DNA of 64,000 bases. It comes from Streptomyces venezuelae (GTDB lineage: Bacteria; Actinomycetota; Actinomycetes; Streptomycetales; Streptomycetaceae). Location: contig NZ_CP029193.1 of the NCBI RefSeq assembly GCF_008642355.1, positions 2,752,001 to 2,816,000 on the forward strand. The letters are read 5' to 3'. The notes beneath the pieces were generated by a model. It made no database searches. It was not told the origin of the DNA and was given only the letters and a program-made list of their open reading frames with translations. This document shows, in pieces, positions 4,765 through 43,512 of the stretch (within the stretch, counting starts at the first letter, position 1; every line of letters begins with the position of its first letter). Position numbers and translations under genes: made by a program.

Positions 4765-4777
4765 CGATCTCGTTGGC

Positions 4778-6169: not shown

Positions 6170-6363
6170 GAGGCGTCCTCGCAATCACTAAGCCAGTTTT
6201 CGAAATCGCTGCGTCGTATTCGGAGGGACCCGTTCGGGAGACGGATGCAGCGCGGCCCCCGCCCCTTCTGTCGCCAGTCGTAGAAGGTGCTGCGTGCGAC
6301 CCCCAGCTCGTCGCATACGTCATCGACGGTCAGCTTCTCCCCAGTTCGAACGGCTACTGTCAT
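6166..6363 (-). CDS. xis: Excisionase / MerR-type helix-turn-helix protein
   Basis: 65 residues with a winged helix-turn-helix of the excisionase (DNA-binding, excisionase-family) type: LTVDDVCDELGVARSTFYDW, then a GRGPRCIRLPNG wing. It is directly upstream of int and overlaps it by four bases. Such proteins bend DNA at the attachment sites and bias recombination toward excision; they can also repress int. The length is typical of the family. Confidence 0.88.
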   Translation of the reverse strand: MTVAVRTGEKLTVDDVCDELGVARSTFYDWRQKGRGPRCIRLPNGSLRIRRSDFENWLSDCEDAS

Positions 6364-16648: not shown

Positions 16649-18143
16649 CCGCGCGTTCCCGACACGGCCGGCCGCGACCAGTCACCGCAGACGGCAAGCC
16701 CCACAGATCGACGCCCTTACCGTGGGTCGCGTCCGTCGCGCCGTGATGCTGCCTCTGGTCCTAGTGGCGGTGTTGTTGAGTGGCGCTTGGATCGTGTGGC
16801 TGACGGCCGCGACGGCTCACGCCTGGATCGTGGTCGGCTTGGTCTGCGGGCTGGGCGTCATCGCGCTGGTCGCCCGGAGCGGCACGCGCACGGCAGCCGT
16901 CGCCATCCATGCAGTCGTGGAAGAGCGGCGAGCGGCGGAGCTGACCGCCCTCGCCAAGGACACGGCGGCTGCGGAGAAGACGGTGCTGTGGTCGGCTGAG
17001 GAACTGTGCCGAGGAGCCCGGCCGCCGCTGCCCGAGCGTCGGATGCCTGGTCCGGCCGGTGCGACGGCGGAGATCAGCAGTGCGCTCGGGGCACTCCAGG
17101 TAGAGGCCGTCACGGCGCTGATACGTGTGCGCGACGAGTCCCAGTCCATCGTCCTTCTCCAGGTCCTGCGCCGTCTGGCCATGCGAGAGCACGCCCTGGT
17201 GGGCAAAGCCCTGGAGGCCCTGAACCAACTGGAGAAGCTCACCGACGATCCGGAACTGCTGGACAGGATCTTCCAGATCGATCACCTAGTGACACGGGTG
17301 CGTCGTCAGGTGGAAAACACAGCAGTTCTGGGCGGTCAGTCCCTGCGCAGCACTCGTCAGCCGGTGTCCGTCACGACCACGCTGCGCGGCGCGGTCTCGG
17401 AGGTCGTCCAGTACTCAAGGGTGGTGGTCGCAGCGGGTTCGGTAGGAGTTCAGCTGGGGCTCCCGGGACATGTGGGCCCCGACTTGACCCACCTGCTGGC
17501 GGAACTGATCGAGAACGCGTGCGAGTCCTCCGATCCCGCCACCAGAGTGCTGGTGCGCGCGGAGCCGGTGCCCAACGGACTGGTCATCGAGGTCGAGGAC
17601 CGAGCCATCCCCATGCCCCCGCAGTCCCGCGCACAGATGAATCACCTGCTCAAGGCCCCCGACGAGGTCGACGTCAGTGCCCAGGTGCGGGCGGGGCAGA
17701 TCGGTCTGCTGGTCGCAGCGAAGATCGCACAGTCGCACAACCTGACCGTGCACCTCCAGGAGAACGCCATGGGAGGCACCACTGCCCAGGTGATCATCCC
17801 CAAGCGGCTCCTCGTGACGATCACACCTGCCGGGAACGTGAGCACCCAACGCGACGTCCGTCTCGTCGGGCCGCCGCCGGAGCAGACCCGCACGGCACCT
17901 GCCCCCGCGATCCACCCGGGCGGAAGCCCGACCGCGGCGCCACTGCCTTCAGCCGGAAGCCCCAGGCCCTCCACTCTGCCGCGGAGAACACGCAAGCCCG
18001 GCTCGGTTCGTCCGCCGGGCGAGCGTGAGCACGTTCCCGTGGCTGCGCCCAGGCCGGGGCTGGCAGCTGCCTTCCGTCGCGGCGTCCAGGCCGGCGAATG
18101 CGCCGCCACACCCACAGACTCCGACGAGCCCACCCGCCCCTGA
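16641..18143 (+). CDS. cvnA: Conservon sensor-kinase-like protein CvnA
   Basis: 500 residues; the ATG overlaps the end of the GH15 gene by eight bases, with GACGAGG upstream. Two transmembrane segments (about residues 33-75: MLPLVLVAVLLSGAWIVWL and VVGLVCGLGVIALVA) precede a helical region and a HATPase domain with N-box LLAELIENACESSDP. A proline- and arginine-rich tail ends the protein. In Streptomyces conservons, CvnA resembles a histidine kinase and forms a membrane complex with CvnB, CvnC and the GTPase CvnD, likened to eukaryotic G-protein signalling. All four genes follow in order. Confidence 0.92.
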   Translation: MPDRAFPTRPAATSHRRRQAPQIDALTVGRVRRAVMLPLVLVAVLLSGAWIVWLTAATAHAWIVVGLVCGLGVIALVARSGTRTAAVAIHAVVEERRAAELTALAKDTAAAEKTVLWSAEELCRGARPPLPERRMPGPAGATAEISSALGALQVEAVTALIRVRDESQSIVLLQVLRRLAMREHALVGKALEALNQLEKLTDDPELLDRIFQIDHLVTRVRRQVENTAVLGGQSLRSTRQPVSVTTTLRGAVSEVVQYSRVVVAAGSVGVQLGLPGHVGPDLTHLLAELIENACESSDPATRVLVRAEPVPNGLVIEVEDRAIPMPPQSRAQMNHLLKAPDEVDVSAQVRAGQIGLLVAAKIAQSHNLTVHLQENAMGGTTAQVIIPKRLLVTITPAGNVSTQRDVRLVGPPPEQTRTAPAPAIHPGGSPTAAPLPSAGSPRPSTLPRRTRKPGSVRPPGEREHVPVAAPRPGLAAAFRRGVQAGECAATPTDSDEPTRP

Positions 18144-18216
18144 CGAGCACACCTTCCCTCGTCTCCCGACGAACCGGCCATAGTCGCCGGCCCTTCCCCC
18201 TCCAGGAGTGATTCCC

Positions 18217-18732
18217 ATGAGCACCCACGCCGAGTTGGACACCGCGTCCGAGGACACCTCCACGTCGCAGGTGGAGGTGACGGCCAGCGGCATGCGCGGT
18301 GACATGCAGTGGCTGCTGAAGCACTTCGTCGCCGAGGTCGCGGGCGTCACGCACGCCGTCCTGCTGTCGCGGGACGGCCTGCAACTTCTGGACAGCGAAG
18401 TCGACAGGGACTGGGCGGACGAGTTGTCCGCCGCCCTCAGCGGAATCTCCGCTGTCGCGAAGAACCTCACCGGGCCAAGCCATCTGAAGCGGCCCGCAAG
18501 CCAGGTCATCATCGAGCGCGACGACTGCCTCATTTTCGTCCAGAGCGCCGGAAGCAGCACCGCCTTCAACAACCACCCGGGCAGCAAGGTGAAGGACACG
18601 ATCCTGGGCGTTGTCGCCACCACGGAGGCGGACGCGGGCAGCGTCGGCTTCGAAATCGGGCGCTTGGTCCAGAGGTTCGCCTCCTACATGCAGGTACCGG
18701 TCCGCAGCCGCACTGACGACGAGGCCCGGTGA
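18217..18732 (+). CDS. cvnB: Roadblock/LC7 protein CvnB
   Basis: 171 residues from the ATG at 18217, with AGGAG eight bases upstream; an in-frame GTG at 18208 is inside that site. Roadblock/LC7 fold: WLLKHFVAEVAGVTHAVLLSRDGL, then a central helix and LIFVQSAGSSTAF-type strands. CvnB proteins regulate the partner GTPase. About 35 extra N-terminal residues rich in Ser/Thr/Glu precede the fold. Its stop overlaps the GTG of cvnC. Confidence 0.92.
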   Translation: MSTHAELDTASEDTSTSQVEVTASGMRGDMQWLLKHFVAEVAGVTHAVLLSRDGLQLLDSEVDRDWADELSAALSGISAVAKNLTGPSHLKRPASQVIIERDDCLIFVQSAGSSTAFNNHPGSKVKDTILGVVATTEADAGSVGFEIGRLVQRFASYMQVPVRSRTDDEAR

Positions 18733-19154
18733 ATACCCACGACCGCACAGACGAGGACGCCACGTTCGTACGGACCTACACGCTGACGCGCGGGCGCACC
18801 CGGCCGCGACACCTGCTGAGCCTGGAGACCGTCCTGGCCACCGGCCCCGGACGTCCCGGTCCCCGTCAGGCCGAGGAGTGCGAGCAGATCCTCGCCCTGT
18901 GCCAGGAGCACCCGCGACCGGTCACCGAGCTGGCCGGGCTGCTTGCCCGCCCCGTCACCGCAGTCAAGGTCCTCATCTCAGACCTTCTGGACGCCAACGC
19001 CCTGATCATCTCCGTGCCCTCCGCGTATACCTCCTCCGATGCCGCCCTCGACGCGGACGCGGAAGAACGACCCACCACCGATCTACTGGCTGCCTTCGCG
19101 GTGGGCCTAAAAAGGAAGTGGCCCAATGCCAACCGTTATTCCCAGGCCGGATGA
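18729..19154 (+). CDS. cvnC: DUF742 protein CvnC
   Basis: 141 residues from a GTG that overlaps the cvnB stop by four bases. DUF742 features: FVRTYTLTRGRTRP, LSLETVLATG, ILALCQEHPRPVTELAGLL with a helix-turn-helix-like segment, and VKVLISDLLDANALI. The third conservon component binds the others at the membrane. The tail overlaps the start of cvnD by 29 bases. Confidence 0.92.
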   Translation: MNTHDRTDEDATFVRTYTLTRGRTRPRHLLSLETVLATGPGRPGPRQAEECEQILALCQEHPRPVTELAGLLARPVTAVKVLISDLLDANALIISVPSAYTSSDAALDADAEERPTTDLLAAFAVGLKRKWPNANRYSQAG

Positions 19155-19794
19155 CCCCCGCGCGGGACTGCGCACTTCGCCGCCCGTACAGGCTGCTGCA
19201 CCAACCGTGCTGAAAATCGTGATCGCCGGAGGCTTCGGCGTGGGCAAGACCACCGCCGTGGCAGCGGTCAGCGACATCACTCCTCTGAGCACGGAGGAGT
19301 ACCTGACCGAGGCAAGCACGGGCGTGGACAGTCTCGAGGGCGTCGAGGCGAAGGAAACCACCACAGTCGCCTTCGACTTCGGCCGGACCAGCCTGCCCGA
19401 CGCGCCCGTTCCCCTGGAGTTGTTCCTGTTCGGCACGCCCGGCCAGGACCGGTTCGGAGACCTCTGGTACGACCTCTCCCGCGGAGCCGTCGGCGCGGTC
19501 GTGCTGGTCGACACCCGCCGCCTGGAAAGCAGCTTTGCCCCCATCGACTTCTTCGAAGACATCCAGCTGCCCTTCGCCATCGCGGTGAACCACTTCGATG
19601 GAACCGAGCGCCATCACCCCGAAGAGGTGCGTGATGCCCTCGGACTGTCGGCGTCCGTGCCGGTGTTGCCCTGCGACGCCCGCAATCCGGACCACGTGGC
19701 GGGCATCCTGATCGCCCTCGTCGGCCACGCCATGCGAACCCCCCCGACAGAGCCCGCCCCCGTCCCATCCGCCACCACTTACCAGGACGCCTGA
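19126..19794 (+). CDS. cvnD: Conservon GTPase CvnD
   Basis: 222 residues. P-loop GGFGVGKTTAV at about residues 34-45, a switch region around TTVAFDFGR, the G3-like FGTPGQDRF and the NHFDG G4. This is the small ATP/GTP-binding family specific to conservons (Ras-like). The ATG lies inside the end of cvnC; the stop overlaps the next ATG, so the GAF gene is part of the operon. Confidence 0.92.
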   Translation: MPTVIPRPDDPRAGLRTSPPVQAAAPTVLKIVIAGGFGVGKTTAVAAVSDITPLSTEEYLTEASTGVDSLEGVEAKETTTVAFDFGRTSLPDAPVPLELFLFGTPGQDRFGDLWYDLSRGAVGAVVLVDTRRLESSFAPIDFFEDIQLPFAIAVNHFDGTERHHPEEVRDALGLSASVPVLPCDARNPDHVAGILIALVGHAMRTPPTEPAPVPSATTYQDA

Positions 19795-20435
19795 TGTCGT
19801 ACCAGCCCTCTACGCCTCATCTCCTGACGCCGCCGGCCGCGCCCATCCTCCCTTTACCGCAACGAGCCCTGCGTCACGGAACGCAGAACCCGGCGCAGCC
19901 CGTCGCCACCACCCCAGCCCGCCCGCAGGAGGCGGAGCCGAGCGAACTGGCCCGGCGGTACGAACTGCTGCGCCGCCTGGGCATGCCCACCACCGCCAGC
20001 GACGAATTCGACGAGATGGCCCGCGCCATGGCCGAGAAAGCCGGATTCCTCTACGGGTTCGTCAACCTGTTCCTGGACACGCAGACCTTCGTCGGGCTGC
20101 ACCAACCACCGGCGGACAGCGGATACGTCATCGTCGGGCGCACCATGAGCCGCGAGCACGGCTGGTGCCCCGAGGTCGTGGCACGCAAGAAGGCCCTGCC
20201 GCTGCCTGATGTGCACGCCAGCCCCCGCTTCAGCGGCAACCACGTGGTCGACGCCGTCGGAATCCGCTCCTACTTCGGCGCTCCGCTCATCCACGACAGC
20301 GGCACCGTGCTCGGCACGGTGTGCGTGATCGACCCCGAGAAGCGCCCCCTGAGCGACGCCCGACGGATCCGGGACATCGTCATCGACGGCGGAGCCCATG
20401 TGATGGACCACATCGCCCCCACGTCATTGCGCTAG
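19794..20435 (+). CDS. GAF-domain protein, fifth gene of the conservon operon
   Basis: 213 residues; its ATG overlaps the cvnD stop by one base. After a ~45-residue proline/alanine-rich leader comes a GAF domain: FDEMARAMAEKAGF, FVNLFLDTQTFVGLHQPP, ARKKALPLPDVHASPRF, YFGAPLIHDSGTVLGTVCVID. GAF domains bind small ligands or haem. Some conservons carry a cytochrome P450 as an extra partner; here a GAF sensor takes that place. A TTA leucine codon at 19854 makes its translation depend on the bldA tRNA. Confidence 0.85.
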   Translation: MSYQPSTPHLLTPPAAPILPLPQRALRHGTQNPAQPVATTPARPQEAEPSELARRYELLRRLGMPTTASDEFDEMARAMAEKAGFLYGFVNLFLDTQTFVGLHQPPADSGYVIVGRTMSREHGWCPEVVARKKALPLPDVHASPRFSGNHVVDAVGIRSYFGAPLIHDSGTVLGTVCVIDPEKRPLSDARRIRDIVIDGGAHVMDHIAPTSLR

Positions 20436-24700: not shown

Positions 24701-25111
24701 ATGGATTTCAGCGCTGTCCTACTGCCGTCCGGCGACTTCACCATCGGAAAGACGTTCACTTTCGAAGCGGGACACCGGATCCCTGGGCTGCCGGACGAGC
24801 ACAAATGCTCCCGCCAGCACGGACACAGTTACGAGGTCGAGGTCGTACTCACCACTGCCTCTCTGGAGGAGCCCGGCTTCGTCACGGACTTCGGGGCGCT
24901 CGCTCCGTTCAAGGAGTTCCTGAACAACGAACTCGACCACCACAACCTGCACGAGATCCTCCCCTTCGAGCCGACCTCGGAGCGCCTGGCCCAATTCCTG
25001 GCCGGCTGGTTCGTCCAGAACCTCCAGCCCGCCATCCCCGGCCGTCTGGTTTCCGTCTTGGTCCGCGAGACCCGCGCAAGCTGGGCCCGCTTTACCGTGG
25101 AGGGCCAGTGA
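24701..25111 (+). CDS. queD: 6-carboxytetrahydropterin synthase QueD
   Basis: 136 residues from an ATG preceded by GGAGG. QueD turns dihydroneopterin triphosphate into 6-carboxy-5,6,7,8-tetrahydropterin. Zinc ligands are visible at His25 (FEAGH) and His40/His42 (QHGH). The catalytic cysteine is Cys36 (KCSRQHGH, the CxxxHGH pattern of QueD rather than plain PTPS), and DHHNLHE follows at residues 79-85. The length is normal. Its stop overlaps the queE GTG and folE follows, so the three make the 7-deazaguanine precursor CDG from GTP. Confidence 0.93.
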   Translation: MDFSAVLLPSGDFTIGKTFTFEAGHRIPGLPDEHKCSRQHGHSYEVEVVLTTASLEEPGFVTDFGALAPFKEFLNNELDHHNLHEILPFEPTSERLAQFLAGWFVQNLQPAIPGRLVSVLVRETRASWARFTVEGQ

Positions 25112-25854
25112 CCACACCCCAGCCGATCAGCCTCGGGCCCCAGGCTGGAGAAGCCGATTTTGGGCTGATCGTCGCAGAGTGTTTCGGTGTCGAAGTCCCG
25201 ACGTTCCAGGGTGAGGGGCCGAGCTGCGGACACCCAGCCATTTTCATCCGCCTGTCCCGGTGCAACTTGACCTGCACGAAATGCGACACGAAGTACACGT
25301 GGGACTGGTCCCAGTTCGATCCGCGCAAGGAATCGACGAAACGGACCGTGGAGGACCTGCTGGCCTATGCGGCGTTGTCGCCGGTCGAGTTGGTCGTCAT
25401 CACCGGCGGTGAGCCGTTGATCCAGCAGGCTCGGCTGGTGCCGCTCGTCCGGGGCCTGATATCAGCCGGCAAGCGGGTCGAGGTCGAGACGAACGGCTCC
25501 ATCGCCCCTCTTCATGAGCTGGTGATCGACGGGGTCCGGTTCAACGTCTCGCCCAAACTCGCCAGCTTCGGGATCAAGGAGAGCAAGAGCATCGTCCCCG
25601 CCGCACTGGAGGCATTTGTCGCTTCCAGGCGTGCAGGTTTCAAGTTCGTCGCGTCCACGCTGGCCGATCTGGACCGGATCGCCGAGCTGGCGGACACCTA
25701 CCGGCTCGCGCCGGTGTGGGTGATGCCGGAAGGGACTACCCCCGAAGCGATCACCGCAACCACCCGAGTCCTGGCCGACGCGGTCGCCGCTCGGCACTGG
25801 CACTTCACCACCCGGCTTCACGTATTGGCCTTCGCGGACGCCCGAGGCCGGTAA
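25108..25854 (+). CDS. queE: 7-carboxy-7-deazaguanine synthase QueE (radical SAM)
   Basis: 248 residues from a GTG overlapping the queD stop by four bases. QueE rearranges 6-carboxytetrahydropterin to 7-carboxy-7-deazaguanine. The FeS-binding CxxxCxxC is CNLTCTKC (Cys52, Cys56, Cys59), preceded by the QueE-typical VEVPTFQGEGPSCGHPAIFIRLS and followed by ITGGEPL at about 98-104. Strand-end motifs VETNGS and FNVSPK also fit the family. All key residues are present, so the enzyme should be active. Confidence 0.94.
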   Translation: MTTPQPISLGPQAGEADFGLIVAECFGVEVPTFQGEGPSCGHPAIFIRLSRCNLTCTKCDTKYTWDWSQFDPRKESTKRTVEDLLAYAALSPVELVVITGGEPLIQQARLVPLVRGLISAGKRVEVETNGSIAPLHELVIDGVRFNVSPKLASFGIKESKSIVPAALEAFVASRRAGFKFVASTLADLDRIAELADTYRLAPVWVMPEGTTPEAITATTRVLADAVAARHWHFTTRLHVLAFADARGR

Positions 25855-25909
25855 CCGCACATCACCACGCCCCATCCGTTCCCATAACCCCAGGAAGCGA
25901 GAGACGTCC

Positions 25910-26539
25910 ATGACGATCTCCACCGCCAGCCCGGAAGCGGCACCGCCCGCCACCAGCCCCGGGCCCGCCGCGATCATCGACATGGGCCGGGTCGCCAACC
26001 TGGTCCATCAACTCCTGGTCGAGTTGGGCGAAAACCCCGCCCGCGAGGGGCTGGCCGACACACCGGACCGTGTTGCGGAGTGGTGGAACACCTTCCTGTC
26101 CCCACACGGCGCCGCGACGACCACCTGCTTCACCGAGTCCCAACTGGGTGGCCAGCTGGTCATCGTGGGCGGCATGAGCGTGTGGTCGCTCTGCGAGCAC
26201 CACTTGCTGCCAATGAACCTTCAGGTCACAGCCGGATACGTGCCGCACGGCGAGGTGGTGGGCCTGTCGAAGTTCGGGCGGGTCGCCCATCACTTCGCCG
26301 GCCGACTGCAGGTCCAGGAACGCTTCACCCATCAGGTCACTGACTACCTCAAACACGTGATCGGACACGAGAACGTCGCCGTCGCCGTGCGCGGCGTTCA
26401 CCTGTGCATGAGCATGCGGGGCGTACGCATGGAGGAAGCCCGCACCACCACGATGCTCGCGGGAGGCCGATTCGAGACCGACCCGGTTCTCTCCCAGCAG
26501 TTCCTCACGCTCACCACCGGCCTGTGGAGGGCGTCGTGA
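25910..26539 (+). CDS. folE: GTP cyclohydrolase I FolE
   Basis: 209 residues. FolE opens GTP to dihydroneopterin triphosphate, the QueD substrate. Zinc ligands are Cys95 and His98 in SLCEHHLLP and Cys166 in GVHLCMSMRGV; the substrate loop GLSKFGRVAHHFAGRLQVQE is intact. A ~25-residue Ala/Pro-rich N-terminal leader precedes the fold. A streptomycete needs a chromosomal folE for folate, so this copy beside queDE is a dedicated, pathway-specific one. Its end overlaps the next gene. Confidence 0.95.
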   Translation: MTISTASPEAAPPATSPGPAAIIDMGRVANLVHQLLVELGENPAREGLADTPDRVAEWWNTFLSPHGAATTTCFTESQLGGQLVIVGGMSVWSLCEHHLLPMNLQVTAGYVPHGEVVGLSKFGRVAHHFAGRLQVQERFTHQVTDYLKHVIGHENVAVAVRGVHLCMSMRGVRMEEARTTTMLAGGRFETDPVLSQQFLTLTTGLWRAS

Positions 26540-27360
26540 CCGCCACGGGCATCGACTTCTCCGTCATCGCTCCGCCCGCCTACCTGAAGCACTTCGTCGC
26601 CCAGGAGCCGGCCCGCGTGCACCACGTGGCCGCCCAACACGTGCTCTCCGACGAGACGTACCGGGATTTCTTCGCCCGTGAGGCCGAGCGCGGCGCCGAG
26701 ATCATCGTCGACAACGGGCTCTTCGACCTCGGCTACGCCCTGCCGGCGGAGCGCCTCGTCGAAGCTGCGCTTGCGGTGTCCGCGAGGGAGATCATCCTGC
26801 CGGACGTCATGCGGGATGGGGCCGCGACCCTGAAGGCGAGCGAGAAGGCCGCGTGCGAGATCCGGGCACTGTCCGGCGAGGCGTTCCGTCTGTGCGCGGT
26901 GCTGCACGCCGCGGACGATGACGAGTGGCTGCGCACCTACGACGCCTATGTGACCAGCGACTGGGCCGGGGCCATCGCGCTGCCTGCGTCGCGCCGACCT
27001 GATCCACACCAGCAGTTGTGCCGCACCCGCTGGCTGGCTACCGCCTACCTGCAAGAGCACGGCTTGGTCGACGATCTGCTCGTCTACCGGCTGCTCGGTC
27101 TGGGCCGGACCGGGCACCTGGAGCTGATCGAACAGCGCGAGCACGAGTGGATCTCCTCCGTGGACGGCGCGGCGCCGGTCATCCTCGGCGCGATGGGCAT
27201 CGCCCTGCTGCCCGAAGGCCCGTACGAGAAGCCCTCCACGCCGCGGATCGAGAACCTCGGCCCGATTCCCGAGGACCGGTTCGGCCTCGTCCGGGAGAAC
27301 ATCTGCGTTGTCCGCGCGGCGGCCGGCAGCACAGTGAAGATCGCCGAGGAGTGCCGATGA
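26536..27360 (+). CDS. TGT/DpdA-like base-exchange enzyme (putative)
   Basis: 274 residues from a GTG overlapping the folE stop. The sequence looks like the TIM-barrel of tRNA-guanine transglycosylase relatives, especially the short DpdA-type proteins of phages and DNA-modification clusters. IIVDNGLFDLG (residues 57-66) stands where TGT has its DSGGFQ active-site segment, and EIILPDVMRDGAATL (85-99) is the next strand with a conserved Asp. No tRNA-binding or zinc domain is visible. Beside folE-queD-queE it could attach the 7-deazaguanine base to a nucleoside, nucleotide or DNA. Family placement is by motif and context only. Confidence 0.55.
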   Translation: MTATGIDFSVIAPPAYLKHFVAQEPARVHHVAAQHVLSDETYRDFFAREAERGAEIIVDNGLFDLGYALPAERLVEAALAVSAREIILPDVMRDGAATLKASEKAACEIRALSGEAFRLCAVLHAADDDEWLRTYDAYVTSDWAGAIALPASRRPDPHQQLCRTRWLATAYLQEHGLVDDLLVYRLLGLGRTGHLELIEQREHEWISSVDGAAPVILGAMGIALLPEGPYEKPSTPRIENLGPIPEDRFGLVRENICVVRAAAGSTVKIAEECR

Positions 27361-28436
27361 CCCCCTTACTGGCCGACCCCGCGCCCGGCCTCCTGCGCGC
27401 TGCCGCGATAGAGCCGGCCGGGCACACTATGAGTCACGCGCGGCTGCTGCGCTACCTGGAGATCAAGGTCCACCACCTCATCCAGGACCAGGAGTGGGAC
27501 AGCATCCGCGTCATCGGCGGCTACGACCGCACTGCGGTGGTATCGCGGTACGAGAAGACTGGGAAGCTGTTCAACATCGAGCGGCCCACCGCAGAGGTTC
27601 ACGGCCGTGACCTCATCGTCAAGGCGTTCCCCGGCGCCGACTACGTCCAGCACTACGCCCTGATCATCGCCACGTACCTGGCCATGACCGGCCGACCGGT
27701 CGGAACTGTCACCTACCAGCCGCCCGAGCAGGAGCAGTGCCGCGCGGCGTTCAACGCGCTGGACCTGGACCTGGACGGCGACCTGGTGATCATCGGCTGG
27801 GGCCTTCAGTACCTCGCTCCCGGGAACGGCGTGTGGACCCGCGGGCCTGGCTACGCCTGGCAGAGAGCCGTGGTCGCCGGCCGTCGCGTGGTCTACCTCG
27901 GGTTCCTGCACAGCATCTGGGGAGACGTGGCTGGGCGGGTCGTCGCGCGCCTTGCCGAACTCGGCGCAGGCGACGTCGTCTACGTCGGCAAGGTCGGCTC
28001 CCTGACCCCCGGCGTCGAGCCGAACTCCTGGCTGGCGACCGGCAACACCAGCCTGGTCCGTGGGGCGATGGTGACCTGGGACGACTTCTTCGGCGACTAC
28101 GCCGTCAACCACGAAGGAGTGCTCGGCGGTCTGCACGTCTCCTCCCCGTCGATCCTGCTGGAGAACCGCGACTGGCTTCTTCAGCACACCGCCTCGTACG
28201 CCTTCGTCGACCCGGAGATCGGCCCCATGGGGGCAGCAGCACGCCAGGCAGCGATCGGTTTCGGCTACCTCCACGTCATATCCAACAACCTCGCCTCCCA
28301 CTATCCCGCCGACCTGTCCAATGAGCGGCACAGCGACGTCCTGCGCCGGCGCGCCGTCCTGGTGGACCGCATCCGCACCCTCATCACCGGCCGCCTGACC
28401 ACCGGTCCCGCCCACACCCCTGGAGAGTCCCGATGA
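27357..28436 (+). CDS. Nucleoside-phosphorylase-like protein (putative)
   Basis: 359 residues; the ATG overlaps the previous stop. The middle and end resemble the purine nucleoside phosphorylase/MTAN superfamily: VVYVGKVGSLTPGVEPNSWLATGN (207-230, like the phosphate/base loop) and FVDPEIGPMGAAARQAAI (283-300, like the ribose-binding Met-Glu segment). The N-terminal ~140 residues are unassigned. In this setting it could make or break an N-glycosidic bond of a 7-deazapurine. The fourth codon is TTA (27366), so translation should need bldA. Family call is uncertain. Confidence 0.45.
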   Translation: MTPLLADPAPGLLRAAAIEPAGHTMSHARLLRYLEIKVHHLIQDQEWDSIRVIGGYDRTAVVSRYEKTGKLFNIERPTAEVHGRDLIVKAFPGADYVQHYALIIATYLAMTGRPVGTVTYQPPEQEQCRAAFNALDLDLDGDLVIIGWGLQYLAPGNGVWTRGPGYAWQRAVVAGRRVVYLGFLHSIWGDVAGRVVARLAELGAGDVVYVGKVGSLTPGVEPNSWLATGNTSLVRGAMVTWDDFFGDYAVNHEGVLGGLHVSSPSILLENRDWLLQHTASYAFVDPEIGPMGAAARQAAIGFGYLHVISNNLASHYPADLSNERHSDVLRRRAVLVDRIRTLITGRLTTGPAHTPGESR

Positions 28437-29125
28437 CGGCGAACGCGCCGACCACCACCGCAGCCGGGAAGCTGATCACCTTCGTCGGCGGTGACGGGGC
28501 CGGCAAGTCGACCCTCGCTGCCCGCCTGCACCAGGCCCTCAACGACGCCGGCCACGCGGCGCTCCTCATCGGCAAGCACAACACCGACGTCCCCCAGGAC
28601 CCGGACCTGTCCGCCTACCTCGACCACCTCAACGAGCTGGTCTATCGGCGTGACGCCCGTGTCGCCCAGGCGTGCGGAGATCACTACTGGCTGCTCGCCC
28701 TGGCTTCCTGGTACACCCTGCAGGACCGGCTCGTCATCCGCCCGGCCCTCGCCGCAGGCACCCATGTGGTCCTCGACAACGGGCACCACAAGATCCTCGC
28801 CCGGTATGCGGTCAACCCTGCCGTGCCCTCCGGTCTGTGCGAGCAGGTCTTCGCGCATCTAACACCGCCGGACCTGGTGTTTTTCCTGAATATCGGCGCT
28901 CGCGAGGCTCTCGTGCGCAAGGGCTCGTTCACTTCCCTGGAGGCCGGCCACGCCGGCGGCAGTGACGAGGACTTCATCCGCTACCAGGACGCCGTCCTGC
29001 GGCAGATGCGCGAACAGGCCGACGCGGGTGGCTGGGCGAGGCTCGACGTCGCCCAGTCGGGCCGGGGCCAGGTCTTTAAGGCCGCCTCCGCCGCCCTTGC
29101 CGACCGTCTGCGTTTGACCGTCTGA
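28433..29125 (+). CDS. Thymidylate-kinase-like P-loop kinase
   Basis: 230 residues; ATGA overlap with the previous gene. Walker A GGDGAGKSTL at residues 19-28, preceded by LITFV as in dTMP kinases, with DNGHH (about residue 120) where dTMP kinases have their DRY-type motif and a loop GSFTSLEAG further on. The N-terminus and the nucleotide-monophosphate part fit the dTMP kinase fold, but the DR(Y/F) motif is replaced, so a different substrate is likely. It ends the tightly overlapped queD-to-kinase run and could phosphorylate a deazapurine nucleotide. Confidence 0.7.
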   Translation: MTANAPTTTAAGKLITFVGGDGAGKSTLAARLHQALNDAGHAALLIGKHNTDVPQDPDLSAYLDHLNELVYRRDARVAQACGDHYWLLALASWYTLQDRLVIRPALAAGTHVVLDNGHHKILARYAVNPAVPSGLCEQVFAHLTPPDLVFFLNIGAREALVRKGSFTSLEAGHAGGSDEDFIRYQDAVLRQMREQADAGGWARLDVAQSGRGQVFKAASAALADRLRLTV

Positions 29126-30143: not shown

Positions 30144-30989
30144 ATGGCACCCCAGGACGCCGTCCTCGGCTGGGACGAGGACAGCAACGCCGAAGCGTAC
30201 AACGCCTTCACCCGCGAGCACCCCATGTACGACGCGACCAGCCGCGACCTCGCACGCCGAAGTCATCTGACCGACGCGAGCCTGGTGGTCGACCTGTGCG
30301 GCGGCGCCGGCGCGACCGCCCGCGCGATCCTGGGCGTGATTCCGGCCCAGGCCCGGGTCGTCTCCGTCGACAATGCCGCCGCGATGCAGCACGTCGGCCG
30401 CCGTGCCTTGGCCGATGCCCGCGTGACCTGGATTACCTCCCCGGCCGAACGGCTCGCCGATCACCTGCCGGCCAGCAGCGCCGATGCCGTGGTGTGCAAC
30501 TCCGCGATCTGGAAGACCGACACCGCCACCGTGTTCTCGGCCGTCGCCCACGTCCTGCGCCCGGGCGGATACTTCGTCTTCAACATCGGCGGCGGCTTCG
30601 CCGGCGTCCGGCATCCTGACGAGCTGACCACCCGCACCGGGCCCTCCCTGAACGCCCTCATCCGCCAAGTCGCGGCCGATACACACGGATACATACCCCT
30701 CTCACGGGATGCAGGCGGGCCGCCGAAGTTGCCGCTGGAAACCGTGACCGGCCAACTGGCAGCAGCCGGAATGATCGTGGTCGACACAGAGGTCACCGCT
30801 CAGCACGGCACCGCGGCCGAAAAGAAGGCATGGCTGTCCATTCCCGTCTTTGCCCGGCCCGAAGGCAACTTCACTCACGCTCAGCGGATGCAGATCCTCG
30901 ATGCCGCCTACGCCATGACCACCCCTGATGCCCCGACCGTGACGAGCTGGCTCGTCGTCGTCGCCCAACTGCCACAGGCCACCACATGA
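30144..30989 (+). CDS. Class I SAM-dependent methyltransferase
   Basis: 281 residues from the ATG at 30144 (AGCGAGG upstream); a TTG at 30084 overlapping the previous stop would add 20 residues. Motif I is VVDLCGGAGATARA (48-61), followed by VVSVDNAAAM (motif II acid) and AVVCNSAIW, and LRPGGYFVFNIGGG for the post-I motif. It is a small-molecule type methyltransferase with no DNA methylase (N/DPPY) motif seen. Likely a tailoring enzyme of the cluster. Confidence 0.85.
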   Translation: MAPQDAVLGWDEDSNAEAYNAFTREHPMYDATSRDLARRSHLTDASLVVDLCGGAGATARAILGVIPAQARVVSVDNAAAMQHVGRRALADARVTWITSPAERLADHLPASSADAVVCNSAIWKTDTATVFSAVAHVLRPGGYFVFNIGGGFAGVRHPDELTTRTGPSLNALIRQVAADTHGYIPLSRDAGGPPKLPLETVTGQLAAAGMIVVDTEVTAQHGTAAEKKAWLSIPVFARPEGNFTHAQRMQILDAAYAMTTPDAPTVTSWLVVVAQLPQATT

Positions 30990-31537
30990 CTCCCGCTGCC
31001 CCGGCTACCGGTGCCGGTGCCGGTGCCGGACTCTGTGATCACGCGAGCGTCGGGGTGCTGATCTCCTCTCCGAGCGGCCTGCTGGTGTTCGAGCGGGCGA
31101 CTCCTCCGGCTGGCATCGCCCCGGTCGCCGGCCATGTCGACGAGCACGGCGGCCCCGAACAGGCAGCGCGCGCCGAGGTCACCGAAGAGGTCGGTCTCAC
31201 CGTCACCCACCTGCACCCGCTGCTGAACCAATGGCGTCCCAACCACTGCCGCCGCACACCCATCGGACCGGTCGGCCACCGCTGGTGGATCTTCCAGGCC
31301 GAGGTATCCGGAACGCTCCGCCCCTCGCCCCGCGAGGTCAGCGCCCCGCGGTGGCTGCGCCCAACCCGTCTGCGGCAGTACGCCGCGCGGACCGCCGCAT
31401 ACGCCAACGGCCACCTGAATCGTGAGGAGTTCGAGCAGGAACCCGGCCTGGAGCCGGTGTGGTGCCGCTTCCTTCACGATCTTGACTTGGTCACCCTGGC
31501 CACGGCCGACCTGGACCGGATCGAGGCCGTCCTGTGA
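30986..31537 (+). CDS. Nudix hydrolase
   Basis: 183 residues, ATGA overlap with the methyltransferase gene. The Nudix segment APVAGHVDEHGGPEQAARAEVTEEVGLTV matches the box except that the Arg before Glu is Ala (AEVTEE), so activity is likely but not certain. The C-terminal VWCRFLHDLDLV region is extra. Nudix enzymes hydrolyse nucleoside diphosphates linked to other moieties. It is the first of seven Nudix proteins here. Confidence 0.82.
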   Translation: MTPAAPATGAGAGAGLCDHASVGVLISSPSGLLVFERATPPAGIAPVAGHVDEHGGPEQAARAEVTEEVGLTVTHLHPLLNQWRPNHCRRTPIGPVGHRWWIFQAEVSGTLRPSPREVSAPRWLRPTRLRQYAARTAAYANGHLNREEFEQEPGLEPVWCRFLHDLDLVTLATADLDRIEAVL

Positions 31538-31557: not shown

Positions 31558-32088
31558 TCAGCGGGATCCGACCACCCGGGCGGCTTCCAGACGGCGTGCG
31601 TGCGCATGGATCCGCTCGCGGTCCTCGGGGAAGACGCTGTCCCAGCCCGTGTCCAGGCGGAACCATGCGACCGGCTGGTTCTGCTCGCCGGCGAGCGGTA
31701 CGTCGCGTCCGGCGACTGCGGCGTAGGACAGGCCCAGCGTCGCGGACCAGTCGGCCCGGTAAGAGCGCACCGCCACGGCTGCGGGCTCACGCAGCAGCTC
31801 GCAGTGCAGGCCGGTCTCCTCCAGCAGCTCCCGTGCCGCTGCCGCACGCGGCGCCTCGCCCAGCTCGACCTTTCCGCCCGGCGGCACCCACCCGCGTACG
31901 CGGTGCTTGACCAGCAGGACGTACTCGAAAGCTGGGTCGGTGACCCACACCTCGGCGGCCAGCGGCTCCATGGGGTGCCGACGCGCTTCCTCCAGCCAGG
32001 CCCGCGCACCGTCGAACTCCCAGGCTGCGAGGCGGGCGTCCGCAACCACCTCGTCCAAGATCACCGGACTGACTTCACCATGACTCAT
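31558..32088 (-). CDS. Nudix hydrolase
   Basis: 176 residues from the ATG at 32088. It is the only minus-strand gene between 24.7 and 44.7 kb. A perfect Nudix box GGKVELGEAPRAAAARELLEETGL is preceded by RGWVPPG and the usual strand ending LLVKHRVRGW. The N-terminal 50 residues (SPVILDEVVADARLAAWEFDG) are helical. The substrate is unknown. Its 3' end is 20 bases from the convergent stop of the upstream Nudix gene. Confidence 0.88.
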   Translation of the reverse strand: MSHGEVSPVILDEVVADARLAAWEFDGARAWLEEARRHPMEPLAAEVWVTDPAFEYVLLVKHRVRGWVPPGGKVELGEAPRAAAARELLEETGLHCELLREPAAVAVRSYRADWSATLGLSYAAVAGRDVPLAGEQNQPVAWFRLDTGWDSVFPEDRERIHAHARRLEAARVVGSR

Positions 32089-32230
32089 CCGTCCCACCCT
32101 AGGCCGCTGGCCCAGCCGGACGGCGTAATGACGAGCAGGCAGCCGTCCGGTGATGTCCGCCCGCCCCGGTGCCTGCGCCGGGCTGCGGGGCGATCATCCG
32201 CGGTGCCCGGTTCGCACGAAGGAGACCAGC

Positions 32231-33439
32231 GTGCACGATGAAACGACACTGGCTCGGGGAGCGTGGGTCGTCCTCGGCGGCATCCACCTACTCAACCGCA
32301 CCGCGCCGCGGCGACCGGACGAGCCGGTCGTACTCGTCAAGGTGCCGCCGCAGGAGGTGTGCAGGCCGGCCACCACCGTGATCGTCCGCTGGCAGACCCT
32401 GGGGCACTGCCCGGCCCAGGCGCTCCTCTCCAACGGCACCCGCCTCGCGGCGGCCGGCATTGATGGCGACGCACTGTTCCCCGACGGCATCGCAGGCCCC
32501 GCCCTGCACGGACTGATCGGCGCCGAAGCTATCCCCAGTCTGGTGCCGCTGTGCTACCTGGCCGAACACCCCGGCGGCGGCTACCACGCCTACGCACAGG
32601 TCCGCTTCCACCCCGAGGACGCCTGCTTCATCCGCACCACCCCAGAGCCCGTCGGCCTCGGTCCAGTCGAAGACCTGCGCTGGTTCGAGCCCGTGCTGAC
32701 AGCGCACGCCGAGTCGAGCATGGCGCTCAACAACCATCTGCGGTACTTCCGCAAGCACTTCACCGGCACCGAGCTGGAGTTCAAGTACACCCTCGACCCG
32801 GCACCGGACATCTGGGCCGCGTCCATGGAACTACTCAAGGCGCTGCGCGACGGCAAGTTGGAAGGCTGCCGCCCGGAATACCGGGAGGAATTCCAGATCC
32901 ACCACACCGAGAACCACCTGTTCGACGTCACCGGCCCCGAGCCCGAGATCGGCTACGCCTCCTTCATCCCCACCGTCACCGCCGAGCACGTGCTCAAACG
33001 CAAATGGTTCACCCAGGACGCTTTTGCCCGCCGCGAGGAACTCACTCCCGGCCTCGACCTCACCCCTGATCGCTTCGGGCCGTACTTGCGCGACGAACTG
33101 GGCCTCCAGGTCCGGGCCATGCCGCCCTTCCAGCGCGTGCGCTACGACATCCAGTGCGAGTCGCTGCGCACCGGACACATCTACGGCATCTTCCTCGACC
33201 GGTGCGCCCTCCTGGCCGCCCCCGACGTCATGCTCTCCCAGTGCGAGCTGGAGTACCTGCGCTCACGCAGCATCCTCGACCACGCCCAGGACGAGGTCCT
33301 CACTGAGATGCAGCGGATCAACACCTGGCTCGGCGAGTACCTCGCCCAGCACGGCTGGGCGGCCGAGCACACCTTCTACTCCAAACGCAGCTTTCTCCGC
33401 GACGCCCTCACTCGCCGCCCGGACCTCGCCACCCCATGA
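32231..33439 (+). CDS. CYTH / triphosphate-tunnel domain protein with an N-terminal unknown domain
   Basis: 402 residues from a GTG with GAAGGAG six bases upstream. Residues ~175-350 look like a CYTH domain: the signature ExExK is E181-L-E-F-K185, basic strands follow as LKRKWF (255-260) and QRVRYD, and the closing ExE is E339-L-E341 in QCELEYLRSRS. CYTH enzymes act on triphosphates (adenylate cyclase class IV, thiamine-triphosphatase, inorganic triphosphatase). The first ~170 residues resemble part of a Nudix-like fold (HAYAQVRFHPEDACFIRTTPE) without a Nudix box. It suits the nucleotide-handling theme of the cluster. Confidence 0.6.
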   Translation: MHDETTLARGAWVVLGGIHLLNRTAPRRPDEPVVLVKVPPQEVCRPATTVIVRWQTLGHCPAQALLSNGTRLAAAGIDGDALFPDGIAGPALHGLIGAEAIPSLVPLCYLAEHPGGGYHAYAQVRFHPEDACFIRTTPEPVGLGPVEDLRWFEPVLTAHAESSMALNNHLRYFRKHFTGTELEFKYTLDPAPDIWAASMELLKALRDGKLEGCRPEYREEFQIHHTENHLFDVTGPEPEIGYASFIPTVTAEHVLKRKWFTQDAFARREELTPGLDLTPDRFGPYLRDELGLQVRAMPPFQRVRYDIQCESLRTGHIYGIFLDRCALLAAPDVMLSQCELEYLRSRSILDHAQDEVLTEMQRINTWLGEYLAQHGWAAEHTFYSKRSFLRDALTRRPDLATP

Positions 33440-33785: not shown

Positions 33786-34657
33786 CGGACTCGACTCGTC
33801 TGCCCTCACCCCTCCAAGCTTGGGTGGAAAGTGTGCTGGGGCCCCTGGACGGGGTGCGGGACTCCTCGCACGACCGTGACAACTCACAGGTGTGGCGGGT
33901 GAGCAGTGCCGCCGGGGACCACTATGTGAAAGTGGCGCCCAAGCCCATCCTCTACACGCGGGAAACCCGCGCCTATCGGGAGGCCGTCCCTCACCTCGGC
34001 CACGGCAACGCCCCTGTGCTGCAGGACAGTTCCGCTGAACTACTCGCCCTGATCCTGACGGCCGTGGATGGCGAGCCCTTGAAGGATGAGCGGTCACCAT
34101 CGCGCCGCCGCGCGGCCCACCGGCAGGCCGGCCAGCTCCTGCGCCGCCTCCACGGCACGCTGGCCGGCGCCCTCGGCCAACCGGAGACGGACAGGATCGT
34201 CGACAGCACGGTCACCGGCCTGGACAAGCACATCGCCGAGGCCGGCGACCACCTGTCTGCCGTGGAGGCCGGTGTTCTGCGGCAGCTGGTGAGCACGCTG
34301 CCCGACTGCGGGCCGCTACCGGCTGGGCTGCAGCATGGTGACTTCTGGGAGCGCAACCTGCTCTGGGACGGACAGAGGTGCGCACTGATCGACTTCGAGC
34401 GCAGCGCACTGGGCCCGTGCGTCGCCGACTTCGTCAAACTCGCCACCTCGTTGTGGCCGGATCATCCCGACCTGCGGACGGCCCTGTTCGAGGGGTACGG
34501 CAGGCCCCTTTCCGCGGCGGAGAGCGAGGCGCTTGCCGCATTCGCCGCCGCTGACGCTGCCAGTGCCCTCGCCTACGGTCCCCGGCACGGCGATGCGCTG
34601 GTGACCGCGCGAGGCCGGCGCACCGTCGAGCGACTCGCACGGGAGGGGGGCCTGTGA
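33782..34657 (+). CDS. Aminoglycoside phosphotransferase-family kinase
   Basis: 291 residues. Kinase-fold motifs: VWRVSSAAGDHYVKVAP (ATP-binding lysine region), the catalytic loop QHGDFWERNLLWD and the metal-binding LIDFERSALGPCVADF. In the cluster a role in phosphorylating a sugar hydroxyl of a nucleoside, or in self-resistance, is plausible. It is coupled to both the small ORF before it and the Nudix gene after it. Confidence 0.85.
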   Translation: MTDSTRLPSPLQAWVESVLGPLDGVRDSSHDRDNSQVWRVSSAAGDHYVKVAPKPILYTRETRAYREAVPHLGHGNAPVLQDSSAELLALILTAVDGEPLKDERSPSRRRAAHRQAGQLLRRLHGTLAGALGQPETDRIVDSTVTGLDKHIAEAGDHLSAVEAGVLRQLVSTLPDCGPLPAGLQHGDFWERNLLWDGQRCALIDFERSALGPCVADFVKLATSLWPDHPDLRTALFEGYGRPLSAAESEALAAFAAADAASALAYGPRHGDALVTARGRRTVERLAREGGL

Positions 34658-35121
34658 AGCACACGCCTCACCTGCTGATCGCCGACGTGGCGCAAGTCCT
34701 GCTTCGGTCGAACGGATCCGCCCTGTGCGTACGCCGCAAGGCAGATGCCCCCCTCGCTCCGGGCCAGCTCACGATCGTGGGCGGCCACCTGGAGACCGGT
34801 GAGCCGCTCGATCACGCGGCGCGGCGTGAAGCGCGGGAGGAAGCAGGGGTCCTCATCAGCGCAGACCAGCAGGAGTTCTGCGGCCTCATCCACCACCACG
34901 CCCCGGACGGCGAGGCAGACCGGATCACCGCCGTGTTCGTGACCCAGTCGTGGACAGGCGAGCCCTACAACGCCGAGCCGGACACACACGAAGGGCTCTT
35001 CTGGGTGCACATGGAGAAGCCGTCGCCGGACTGCCACCCCTACACCGCCACGATCTTCCACATGCTCACCCACGGCCCGTCCTACCGGGCCGTCAACTGG
35101 CCTGCAGGAGGCGCTCGGTGA
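34654..35121 (+). CDS. Nudix hydrolase
   Basis: 155 residues from a GTG overlapping the kinase stop. Perfect box GGHLETGEPLDHAARREAREEAGV at about residues 47-70. The strand before it (LCVRRKADAPLAPGQLTIV) and the region after (GLIHHHAPDGEADRITAVFVTQSWTGEPYNAEPDTHEGLFWV) are typical of small MutT-like enzymes. It overlaps the ABC transporter gene, so export and hydrolysis are co-expressed. Confidence 0.88.
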   Translation: MKHTPHLLIADVAQVLLRSNGSALCVRRKADAPLAPGQLTIVGGHLETGEPLDHAARREAREEAGVLISADQQEFCGLIHHHAPDGEADRITAVFVTQSWTGEPYNAEPDTHEGLFWVHMEKPSPDCHPYTATIFHMLTHGPSYRAVNWPAGGAR

Positions 35122-37094
35122 AGAAGCTCTTCGGCAGGATCACCAAGGCGGACACGAAGATCAGCGAGGCGGAGCTGGAGCTGTTCGGCGGGCCGCTGCG
35201 GTACGACATGGGGTGGAGCACTCACGAGTACGCACGACTCGACCTCACATTGTGGGGTGCACTGAAGTCGCTGCCACGTCTCGTGGGGCGGACGGTCGCG
35301 CTGGCCTGGCGGACCGACCGGCGCTCCCTGATCACCGTCGGTGTCACAGAGGTGGGCCAGGGCGTCGCCACGGCATTCAAGTTGCTGGCCGTCAACGCTG
35401 CCCTGCACGCCGTCCTCGCGGCCGGCACAGATGTGCGGGGCCTGCGGCACGCGCTGCCCGCCGGGGTCCTGCTCGTGGTGATCAACAGCATCAACGCCCT
35501 GCTCGCTTCCTGGTCGACCTCGGCCGCGGGAAGCCTGGAACCCAAGGTCGAGCGAGCCGCTTCCGAGCAGTACCTGACCGCCTGCGAACGCGTCGAGATG
35601 GAGGCGATCGAGGACGGCGAGTTCCGCGAGCTGATCGACCGCGCCCAGTACGGGGCGAACGAGGCACGCCACATGATCGGCTCCAGCGTGGCCGCCATCA
35701 ACAGCGTCCTGTCCCTGGTCGCGTCCGGCGGGGTGCTGCTCTCGCTCAACCCGGCTCTGCTGCCGATGCTCGTCCTGATCGTGGCGCCGCGCGGCTGGGG
35801 CGTCATGCGGGTAGCCCAGCAGCGCTACGCCTCGACCATGTCCTGGGTGGAGCACCTGCGGGCCAGCCGGGTGCTGTCGAACCTCCTCACCTCCGTCACC
35901 GCCGCGCTGGAGGTACGCGTCCATGGGGTTGGCACCTACCTGCTGCGCCACTTCAAAACGATGTCGCACACGGCGGAGAGCGAGCAGGAGCGCCTGGCGC
36001 GCGACAAGGCCCGCACGGAACTGCTGGCCTCCGCCCTCCAGGGCGTCGGCTACCTCCTGACGTTCACGCTGATGATCAGCCTGTGCCTGACCGGGCACAT
36101 GAGCGTGGCCGCGTTCGGCACCGCCGCCATGGCCCTCAACTCCGGCTCCGCCGGCATCGGCGCGCTGGTCAGCACCATGAGCCAGCTGCATGAACAGTCC
36201 CTGTACGTGGCTGATCTGTCCGAGTTCCTGGTGCGGGCGCAGGAGCGTGCCATCCCTGATGCCGGCCTTCCGCTGACGGAACGCCCGCGCTCCATCAGCC
36301 TGGAGAAGGTTTCCTTCTGCTACCCCGGGCGGACCGAACCTGCGGTCAAGGAAGTGACGTTCACCATCCCGCTGGGCAGTGTCATCGCCTTGGTTGGTCC
36401 GAACGGGAGCGGTAAGTCCACGCTGGTCCGGCTGCTGTCCGGCCTCCACCTGCCCGACGCCGGCCGGATCCGCTGGGACGAGGTGGACGTCGCGGCTGCC
36501 GACCGGCGCCAGCTCTTCAGCCACGTCAGCCTGCTCACCCAGACATTCGAGCGCTGGCCGTTCACCGCAGGGACCAACATCCGCATCGGCCAGCACGACC
36601 GCACCGCCTCCCCGGAGGGCCTGGCAGCCTCCGCCTTGTACTCGGGTGCGGACACTGACATCGCAGCCCTGCCGCGGGAGATGAACACGCTCCTGGGCAA
36701 GCAGTTCCGGGGCGGCCACGACCTGAGCGGAGGCCAATGGCAGAAAATCGGGCTGGCGCGTGCCCACTTCCGTGACGCCTGCATGATCATCGTGGATGAG
36801 CCGACCTCGGCGCTCGATCCGGACGCCGAGCAACGTGCCTTTGAGCAGATCCTGGGGCTTGCCGGCCCTGACCGGATCATCGTCCTGGTCACCCACCGCA
36901 TGGCGGCGGTCCGGCACGTCGACCACATCTTCGTCATGCACGAAGGGCGCCTCGTCGAGCAGGGCAGTCACGCCGAGCTGTTCGCCGCCGAACCTGCCAG
37001 CCGCTACGCGCGGATGTACCGCCTCCAGGCCGAGCAGTACGAGTACCCCTCCGTGCCCCGGCCCGCCCGGCCCTCAACCTCCGAGCCCGCATGA
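35118..37094 (+). CDS. ABC transporter, fused permease and ATPase (exporter type)
   Basis: 658 residues from a GTG overlapping the Nudix stop. An N-terminal membrane domain (about residues 70-330, six hydrophobic spans including GVLLVVINSINALLA and MISLCLTGHMSV) is followed by the ATPase: Walker A GPNGSGKST (about 427-435), signature LSGGQWQKIGLARA (about 535), Walker B ACMIIVDEPTSALD and the switch VTHR. Half-transporter exporters of this type dimerise to pump lipids or drugs; the neighbour MFS pump suggests product export or self-protection. Confidence 0.9.
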   Translation: MKKLFGRITKADTKISEAELELFGGPLRYDMGWSTHEYARLDLTLWGALKSLPRLVGRTVALAWRTDRRSLITVGVTEVGQGVATAFKLLAVNAALHAVLAAGTDVRGLRHALPAGVLLVVINSINALLASWSTSAAGSLEPKVERAASEQYLTACERVEMEAIEDGEFRELIDRAQYGANEARHMIGSSVAAINSVLSLVASGGVLLSLNPALLPMLVLIVAPRGWGVMRVAQQRYASTMSWVEHLRASRVLSNLLTSVTAALEVRVHGVGTYLLRHFKTMSHTAESEQERLARDKARTELLASALQGVGYLLTFTLMISLCLTGHMSVAAFGTAAMALNSGSAGIGALVSTMSQLHEQSLYVADLSEFLVRAQERAIPDAGLPLTERPRSISLEKVSFCYPGRTEPAVKEVTFTIPLGSVIALVGPNGSGKSTLVRLLSGLHLPDAGRIRWDEVDVAAADRRQLFSHVSLLTQTFERWPFTAGTNIRIGQHDRTASPEGLAASALYSGADTDIAALPREMNTLLGKQFRGGHDLSGGQWQKIGLARAHFRDACMIIVDEPTSALDPDAEQRAFEQILGLAGPDRIIVLVTHRMAAVRHVDHIFVMHEGRLVEQGSHAELFAAEPASRYARMYRLQAEQYEYPSVPRPARPSTSEPA

Positions 37095-38413: not shown

Positions 38414-38529
38414 CGAGCGAGCTCGACGACGGCAAGGGGAACCGCAGCACCGGATGAACACCGGCGCATCACGATCGTCCCGCTGGTAGGCGTACCTTCG
38501 CCCGCCCACCACCTGAAAGGCAGAGCCCT

Positions 38530-39666: not shown

Positions 39667-39718
39667 CCCGACCCCCACCTCGACTCGTCCCCCTTCCCAT
39701 GCATCTCTGAGGTAGCCC

Positions 39719-42450: not shown

Positions 42451-42578
42451 CACGCCGGCAGCCGCGTCCACTTCTTCAATCCCCGCACCGTCCCGGAAGC
42501 ACCGGAACGTGGCCACTCCACCTCGGTCCGGTTGCGGTCCCGGACAGCAACGGACGATGTGCATCAACGGAGGTACGT

Positions 42579-43481: not shown

Positions 43482-43512
43482 CCCCTAAACACCCGCCCAC
43501 TAGGAGGCAACC

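Follow-up and report, generated by a model that had tools for sequence, protein, structure and literature searches.

We find that a gene set conserved in some soil actinobacteria, Streptomyces venezuelae among them, probably makes 7-carboxy-7-deazaguanine (CDG) and, as judged from sequence, puts it in the place of guanine, either in nucleotides or in DNA, by means of a relative of the enzymes through which phages disguise their DNA. The set lies in the window analyzed here, a stretch of 64,000 nucleotides (contig NZ_CP029193.1, positions 2,752,001 to 2,816,000), in which six genes, queD-queE-folE-P4-P5-P6, run in the same direction from 24701 to 29125, the coordinates given by an original prediction made from this sequence alone, with 4-base overlaps at QueD/QueE, FolE/P4, P4/P5 and P5/P6. 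The conserved unit continues past P6 to about 32097 with P7, P8, one NUDIX gene and then a convergent NUDIX gene. The overall reading of that prediction, a CDG pathway without QueC alongside base-handling enzymes, stands, while its argument from nearby transporters is weakened; the joining of such a pathway to base-exchange-like, phosphorylase-fold and kinase-like proteins is supported by our analysis. The reading that we favor, at a probability of roughly one half, is that CDG is made by this QueC-independent pathway and then attached to a sugar through base exchange.

FolE, QueD and QueE all carry their catalytic motifs, as had been claimed, and their predicted activities place them together in CDG synthesis. 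queD (24701..25111, plus strand, as are all operon genes unless stated; start placed by its ribosome-binding site), for 6-carboxy-5,6,7,8-tetrahydropterin synthase, matches PF01242 at 90.3 bits, scored on a longer open reading frame (ORF), and retains H...C...HGH, LDH and PTSE. queE (25108..25854), for a radical S-adenosylmethionine (SAM) CDG synthase, retains CX3CX2C and QGEG; its best NCBIfam matches are QueE models, below cut-offs, and a viperin identity is ruled out by the scores (86.3 and 78.1 bits with QueE models, 24.1 and 19 bits with viperin models). folE (25910..26539; PF01227, 171 bits), with C95, H98 and C166 intact, is one of two genes for GTP cyclohydrolase I in this genome. The genome is a single contig of 8,018,484 bases (8.02 Mb), and family searches across all of it at E 0.001 return no match to QueC (TIGR00364, which finds QueC in 12 of 14 control genomes), to QueF (TIGR03139, positive in 9 of 14) or to canonical tRNA-guanine transglycosylase (TGT; PF01702, positive in 14 of 14). 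The lack of QueC and QueF first noticed in the window thus extends to the entire genome, and the GTP-derived route appears to end at CDG; on these searches we reject both a QueC encoded elsewhere and queuosine formation via canonical TGT, and the operon would not belong to a preQ0 or queuosine pathway. The QueE of the cassette is the sole match to TIGR03365 in the genome, below cut-off. A second folE, which the original prediction had proposed to seek together with queC, is found at genome position 4532516, and the FolE of the cassette is 38% identical to that copy.

Scanning genome contigs with a profile of aligned P4 proteins gives 44 loci, of which we retain 43 (L046, a 93-residue match, is left out) and add the plasmid loci L049 and L050, with the short L051–L060 set aside, for a set of 45 that includes several close relatives and is not a sample of independent loci. 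Partner genes were sought by tblastn (E 1e-4) no farther than 10 kb from P4, and we find homologues of QueD, QueE, FolE and P5 at every locus, P6 at 44, P7 and P8 at 43 each, NUDIX-2 at 42, NUDIX-1 at 29 and the protein encoded from 32150 at 20. L005 and L040 are truncated at contig ends, and L037, from a metagenome-assembled genome, lacks P6, P7, P8 and NUDIX-2 on a contig that continues. None of the 45 loci contains the QueC-type pattern SGG[LVMIY]DS. Among the 30 other carrier genomes that we searched (for 30 of the 44 scan loci), 22 have no QueC over cut-off and 29 no TGT over cut-off (one over cut-off, two with some match); the system depends on neither QueC nor TGT. The operon is rare and patchy, with P4 in 10 of 295 same-genus genomes (E 1e-10; own genome included, one match a 35-residue fragment), and it also occurs on plasmids (four records). 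Every relative of P4 with a named organism is actinobacterial among the 120 listed of 211 matches; in all, 120 of 211, 120 of 221 and 120 of 1538 protein matches were inspected, and further bacterial relatives may exist. A phylum-wide draw of 396 genomes gives three matches, own included and all same-genus, too thin a yield to describe distribution.

Six of the loci, L039–L044, have the gene order FolE-QueD-QueE, and the FolE proteins of L039, L041, L043 and L044 are only 32–36% identical to the window FolE while 72–88% identical among themselves, yet the P4 proteins of this set retain 58–63% identity. Since FolE has diverged while P4 is conserved, P4–P8 seem to be joined to two different sets of CDG genes, and since neither set includes the QueC motif, this argues that CDG is what P4–P8 need. 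In QueE of the second set (L039:9154-9954 and L043:3578-4405), we read an expanded CX3CX18C in place of CX3CX2C.

P4 (26536..27360) is the candidate base-exchange enzyme. Its predicted fold is a TGT barrel with the paired catalytic aspartates, placing it in the TGT superfamily, and the catalytic residues of its family align in register with 9g-type DpdA and, weakly, with Escherichia coli TGT. It is not a canonical TGT: P4, which has no Pfam match, does not match PF01702, nor does any of 32 aligned members at E 1, and P4 has 274 residues vs 375 in E. coli TGT. The "TGT/DpdA-like barrel" of the original prediction is accordingly correct as to the predicted barrel, with the DpdA likeness holding at the level of the superfamily. 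An alignment of mixed actinobacterial and phage proteins matches 9g-type DpdA in hhalign with a probability of 69.9%; tblastn connects P4 to phages Youna2 (E 2e-10) and BSP7 (E 4e-9) and the BSP7 protein in turn to phiST (E 2e-5) and CP220 (E 2e-4), and the phiST protein ranks third among BFVD fold matches. P4 and these phage proteins have ten invariant residues in common at 17–24% identity to P4, and homology and invariant residues together place P4 with phage transglycosylases of the phiST/CP220 type. A PDB sequence search (query A3) reaches a DNA-guanine transglycosylase at a non-significant E 0.14, IMG/VR scans with query A1 and with the BSP7 protein reveal no relative, and P4, P5 and P7 have no PADLOC match at E 0.1.

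The proteins encoded beside P4 are largely of nucleotide-handling type. P5 (27357..28436), which has no Pfam match, is predicted to fold like nucleoside phosphorylase family 1 (NP-1), which bears out the phosphorylase-like protein expected after the barrel, and carries some 130 additional residues at its N terminus; it has an invariant S-N-N where DeoD has S-D-H, with the catalytic Asp, a correspondence by order of elements only, as hhalign of P5 against DeoD covers just 28 residues away from this element. P6 (28433..29125) is a thymidylate-kinase-like P-loop protein, and here too the earlier assignment, dTMP-kinase-like, is confirmed, by PF02223 (28.6 bits, cut-off 27) and by sequence matches in the PDB (thymidylate kinase, E 3.1e-6). 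P7 (29158..30087) is DUF2797-like with conserved Cys and His; it scores 24.3 bits with PF10977 (cut-off 25), 10 of 10 relatives match that family (best E 5.6e-9), and the PDB holds no match to it up to E 10. P8 (30144..30989; PF13649, 45.1 bits) is a class I SAM-dependent methyltransferase that also matches the PADLOC model mad2 (E 9.7e-13). The first NUDIX protein (30986..31537; PF00293, 58.1 bits) is an optional member of the unit, and the second (31558..32097, minus strand), with a NUDIX box kept in 11 aligned sequences, is a conserved one. A further optional protein, of no Pfam family and with an uncertain start, is encoded at 32150..33439. For P5, P7 and P8, for which phages were not searched by tblastn, PHROGs gives no more than weak or generic matches.

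The relatives of P4 outside actinobacteria that we find are phage proteins; part of those of phiST/phi13:1, CP220, immuto and BSP7 go by the name DpdA3. We examined eight hand-picked phage records, one per kind (Youna2, BSP7, StAshley, CP220, phi13:1, immuto, MA9V-3 and Ahp1), and as controls 11 loci of 9g-type DpdA (phage 9g itself plus ten more of the 234 records that match 9g DpdA); phage Bipper, in which no dpdA is annotated in the stretch examined, was not used. Queuosine-type genes lie near the P4 homologue in seven of the eight phages: queD, queE and folE all stand in the stretch shown in Youna2, BSP7, phi13:1 and immuto, two of the three in StAshley and MA9V-3, and folE alone in Ahp1. 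A QueC match is absent from three of the eight records (phi13:1, MA9V-3 and Ahp1). In seven of the eight (Youna2, BSP7, CP220, phi13:1, immuto, MA9V-3 and Ahp1), a small P-loop protein of 156–189 residues is encoded no more than three genes away from the P4 homologue, and the same pattern finds none near 9g-type DpdA (0 of 11 loci, 64 genes; one-sided Fisher test on records, p = 0.00016). Five of the seven P-loop proteins are by Pfam AAA_28, AAA_18 or deoxynucleotide monophosphate kinase. Both phi13:1 and immuto have a pyrophosphohydrolase gene at most three genes from the P4 homologue, and an HD-domain gene adjoins it in CP220; at 10 of the 11 loci of 9g-type DpdA, the genes annotated nearby include one for a DNA polymerase clamp or a ParB-like protein. 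According to PMC8306585, dADG takes the place of 100% of dG in CP220 and CPt10, and PMC6884629 lists Campylobacter phages of the CP220 group without DpdA and raises a modified-dGTP route. We note that CP220 gp056 (L071:6932-7708), annotated as hypothetical, is a TGT-superfamily homologue that adjoins a thymidylate-kinase-like gene.

Kinase-like genes accompany this type of transglycosylase both in phages and in the operon, and this favors a mononucleotide as the substrate. In the mechanism that we propose, FolE, QueD and QueE, as intact families, would take GTP to CDG, and P4, from its fold and alignment, would replace guanine by CDG; D210 would serve as the nucleophile and D59 as the general acid/base, the roles that such residues have in TGT. 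The acceptor would be guanosine or deoxyguanosine monophosphate ((d)GMP), in preference to tRNA or intact DNA, and the reaction would yield CDG-(d)NMP and guanine. P6 would then phosphorylate the CDG mononucleotide, P5 might cleave or make the N-glycosidic bond of a nucleoside or nucleotide in salvage or base release, P8 would methylate, perhaps at the CDG carboxylate, and the NUDIX proteins could supply monophosphate or clear triphosphate. The product would be a CDG nucleotide or nucleoside, whose role may be that of a metabolite, of an antiviral or of a precursor for DNA. We are highly confident that CDG is the base used and consider it likely that P4 performs the exchange; that P4 acts on a mononucleotide is close to an even bet. 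We know of no report of a mononucleotide guanine transglycosylase. A bolder version strikes us as quite improbable: the P4 family would have this activity and in actinobacteria would yield a (deoxy)nucleoside triphosphate of CDG as a poison for phage polymerases, a viperin-like antiviral nucleotide produced with queuosine enzymes, with NUDIX proteins guarding the host.

Several observations weigh against exchange on a mononucleotide, or against parts of the case for it. Kinase genes are common in phages, and the P-loop proteins near the P4 homologues are of different families, those of BSP7 and Youna2 reaching no Pfam cut-off. The eight phages fall, by our own grouping, into about five lineages, at which level the comparison is 4 of 5 vs 0 of 5 (one-sided p = 0.024), and StAshley encodes no P-loop protein within three genes, with an annotated deoxynucleotide monophosphate kinase as the fifth gene downstream. 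CP220 has no que gene in the 14.6-kb stretch around its P4 homologue. QueC is found over cut-off in 8 of the 30 carrier genomes, with some match at E 0.001 in 14. When only actinobacterial proteins are aligned, the hhalign match to 9g-type DpdA is weak (probability 2.7%), and the link of P4 to DpdA draws on the mixed alignment, tblastn and the folds. Finally, the phage relatives of P4 are considered to modify DNA, and Cui et al. 2023 reportedly named a DpdA3 subfamily with complete replacement and concluded that it inserts its base post-replicatively.

This last point leads to the strong main rival to mononucleotide exchange, that P4 is a true DNA-guanine transglycosylase and inserts CDG, perhaps then methylated by P8, into the DNA of the bacterium itself or of an element, with P7 as a nucleic-acid-binding or restriction partner and with P5, P6 and the NUDIX proteins recycling modified nucleotides. 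The four phages with queD, queE and folE all near the P4 homologue fit this reading, as do the DNA polymerase gene directly downstream of that homologue in three of the eight (Youna2, BSP7 and StAshley) and the annotation of one phage homologue as a DNA guanine transglycosylase; phi13:1, with no QueC match, offers a precedent for a CDG-only set. The patchy, partly plasmid-borne distribution of the operon and the mad2 match of P8 point the same way, and a 2025 preprint (PMC11888242) describes a validated dpd island in the actinobacterium Kineococcus. Against it, Pfam scans of 40 window ORFs find no ParB-like (DpdB) or DUF328 (DpdC) family, P4, P5 and P7 are unmatched in PADLOC, the conserved partners are nucleotide-type enzymes, and it is difficult to picture a bacterium with all its guanine replaced, as happens in CP220. 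We regard exchange on DNA as somewhat unlikely on this balance.

We find it doubtful that the operon makes a secreted nucleoside, in which P5 would join CDG to ribose-1-phosphate. The product would then be an antibiotic of the cadeguomycin type, cadeguomycin being the riboside of CDG, and resistance and export would fall to P6 and to the phosphotransferase, NUDIX and transporter genes nearby. Such a product accords with CDG made without QueC, the phosphorylase fold of P5 and the accessory distribution among same-genus genomes. A strain of Streptomyces hygroscopicus is a cadeguomycin producer, and locus L008 among the 44 comes from another strain of that species, a weak point in favor. A late-2025 review (PMC12648386) places cadeguomycin among compounds without an identified cluster. 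The original prediction held that transporters favor a small molecule. In the window, APH-type phosphotransferase, ATP-binding cassette (ABC) and major facilitator superfamily (MFS) genes lie downstream of P4, with starts at about 7.2, 8.4 and 10.6 kb from it, distances to which the 45 loci extend unequally (38 to 8 kb, 37 to 10.4 kb, 2 to 11.9 kb). An ABC homologue is found in 10 loci, all streptomycete, four of them only 32–33% identical, and none outside streptomycetes within 10 kb; the APH homologue is found in none of the 45 loci, 38 of which reach 8 kb, and the MFS homologue in one, at 28% identity, where only two reach far enough to judge. Seven longer stretches, four of which overlap the 45-locus set (L090/L038, L091/L015, L092/L013 and L094/L011), hold an ABC homologue in four (36–56% identity), an MFS homologue in one and a close APH homologue in one, with further NUDIX genes in some streptomycete copies. 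As the ABC gene is, among the 45 loci, confined to streptomycetes and to a minority, the exporters and further NUDIX genes are an extension in some streptomycetes rather than part of the wide core, and the transporter argument loses force. A secreted nucleoside would also leave P4 without a role, and the Pfam scans of 40 window ORFs find no phosphoribosyltransferase family. That P4 is a tRNA-guanine transglycosylase using CDG in a genome without queuosine enzymes is very improbable, in that its TGT fold and the absence of canonical TGT from its own genome and, over cut-off, from nearly all carriers are set against its short length, its failure and that of its family to match PF01702, and the 285 of 295 same-genus genomes without P4.

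Several neighboring features of the window deserve mention. It contains a Streptomyces RNA family, which, like the names of P4 relatives, points to that genus. At 4442-6184, a phage-type integrase gene, encoded on the minus strand, comes after a tRNA-Arg, which suggests an integrated element; the 3′ end of the tRNA-Arg has no second copy in the window, the test for an attachment site, and we therefore do not claim the operon as part of that element. Upstream of the operon, HATPase, Roadblock, DUF742, ATP-binding and GAF genes stand consecutively at 16527-20435, a row that we take to resemble an actinobacterial conservon. Downstream, at 34654-44685, lie genes for several NUDIX proteins; one contains three NUDIX stretches, and one is a fusion of a methyltransferase with NUDIX. 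The same region encodes an M15 peptidase to which a P-loop domain is fused.

A published description of this operon is not found among titles and abstract openings, a coverage that leaves out most subscription papers. The 2025 preprint still calls preQ0 the universal precursor of known 7-deazapurines (PMC11888242); if our reading is true, CDG itself would be the base used by this conserved bacterial system. The kinase linkage makes it directly testable whether CP220/phiST-type transglycosylases act on DNA or on mononucleotides before replication, and either answer would bear on how some phages replace all guanines and would identify a way in which deazaguanine nucleotides arise.

Prokaryotic viperins encoded with kinases resemble this system in pairing a radical SAM enzyme with a nucleotide kinase to yield a modified nucleotide; they differ in that the QueE of the window fits QueE models far better than viperin models. 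Bacterial Dpd islands (dpdA-dpdK) likewise combine a TGT-superfamily enzyme with 7-deazaguanine synthesis genes, but are preQ0-based and include DpdB and DpdC, as described in PMC11888242 and PMC12839542; neither of these two families is represented in the 40 scanned window ORFs, nor is QueC in the genome. The toyocamycin, tubercidin and huimycin clusters have the same FolE/QueD/QueE first steps in actinobacteria; for toyocamycin and tubercidin, preQ0 is the key intermediate according to PMC12648386, whereas the genome studied here has no QueC match and the 40 scanned ORFs no phosphoribosyltransferase. The phage proteins of phiST/phi13:1, CP220, immuto and BSP7 differ from P4 in their phage setting and low sequence identity and are like it in homology, in the same invariant residues and in a small P-loop protein encoded nearby, and phi13:1 resembles the window in having queD, queE and folE and no QueC match.

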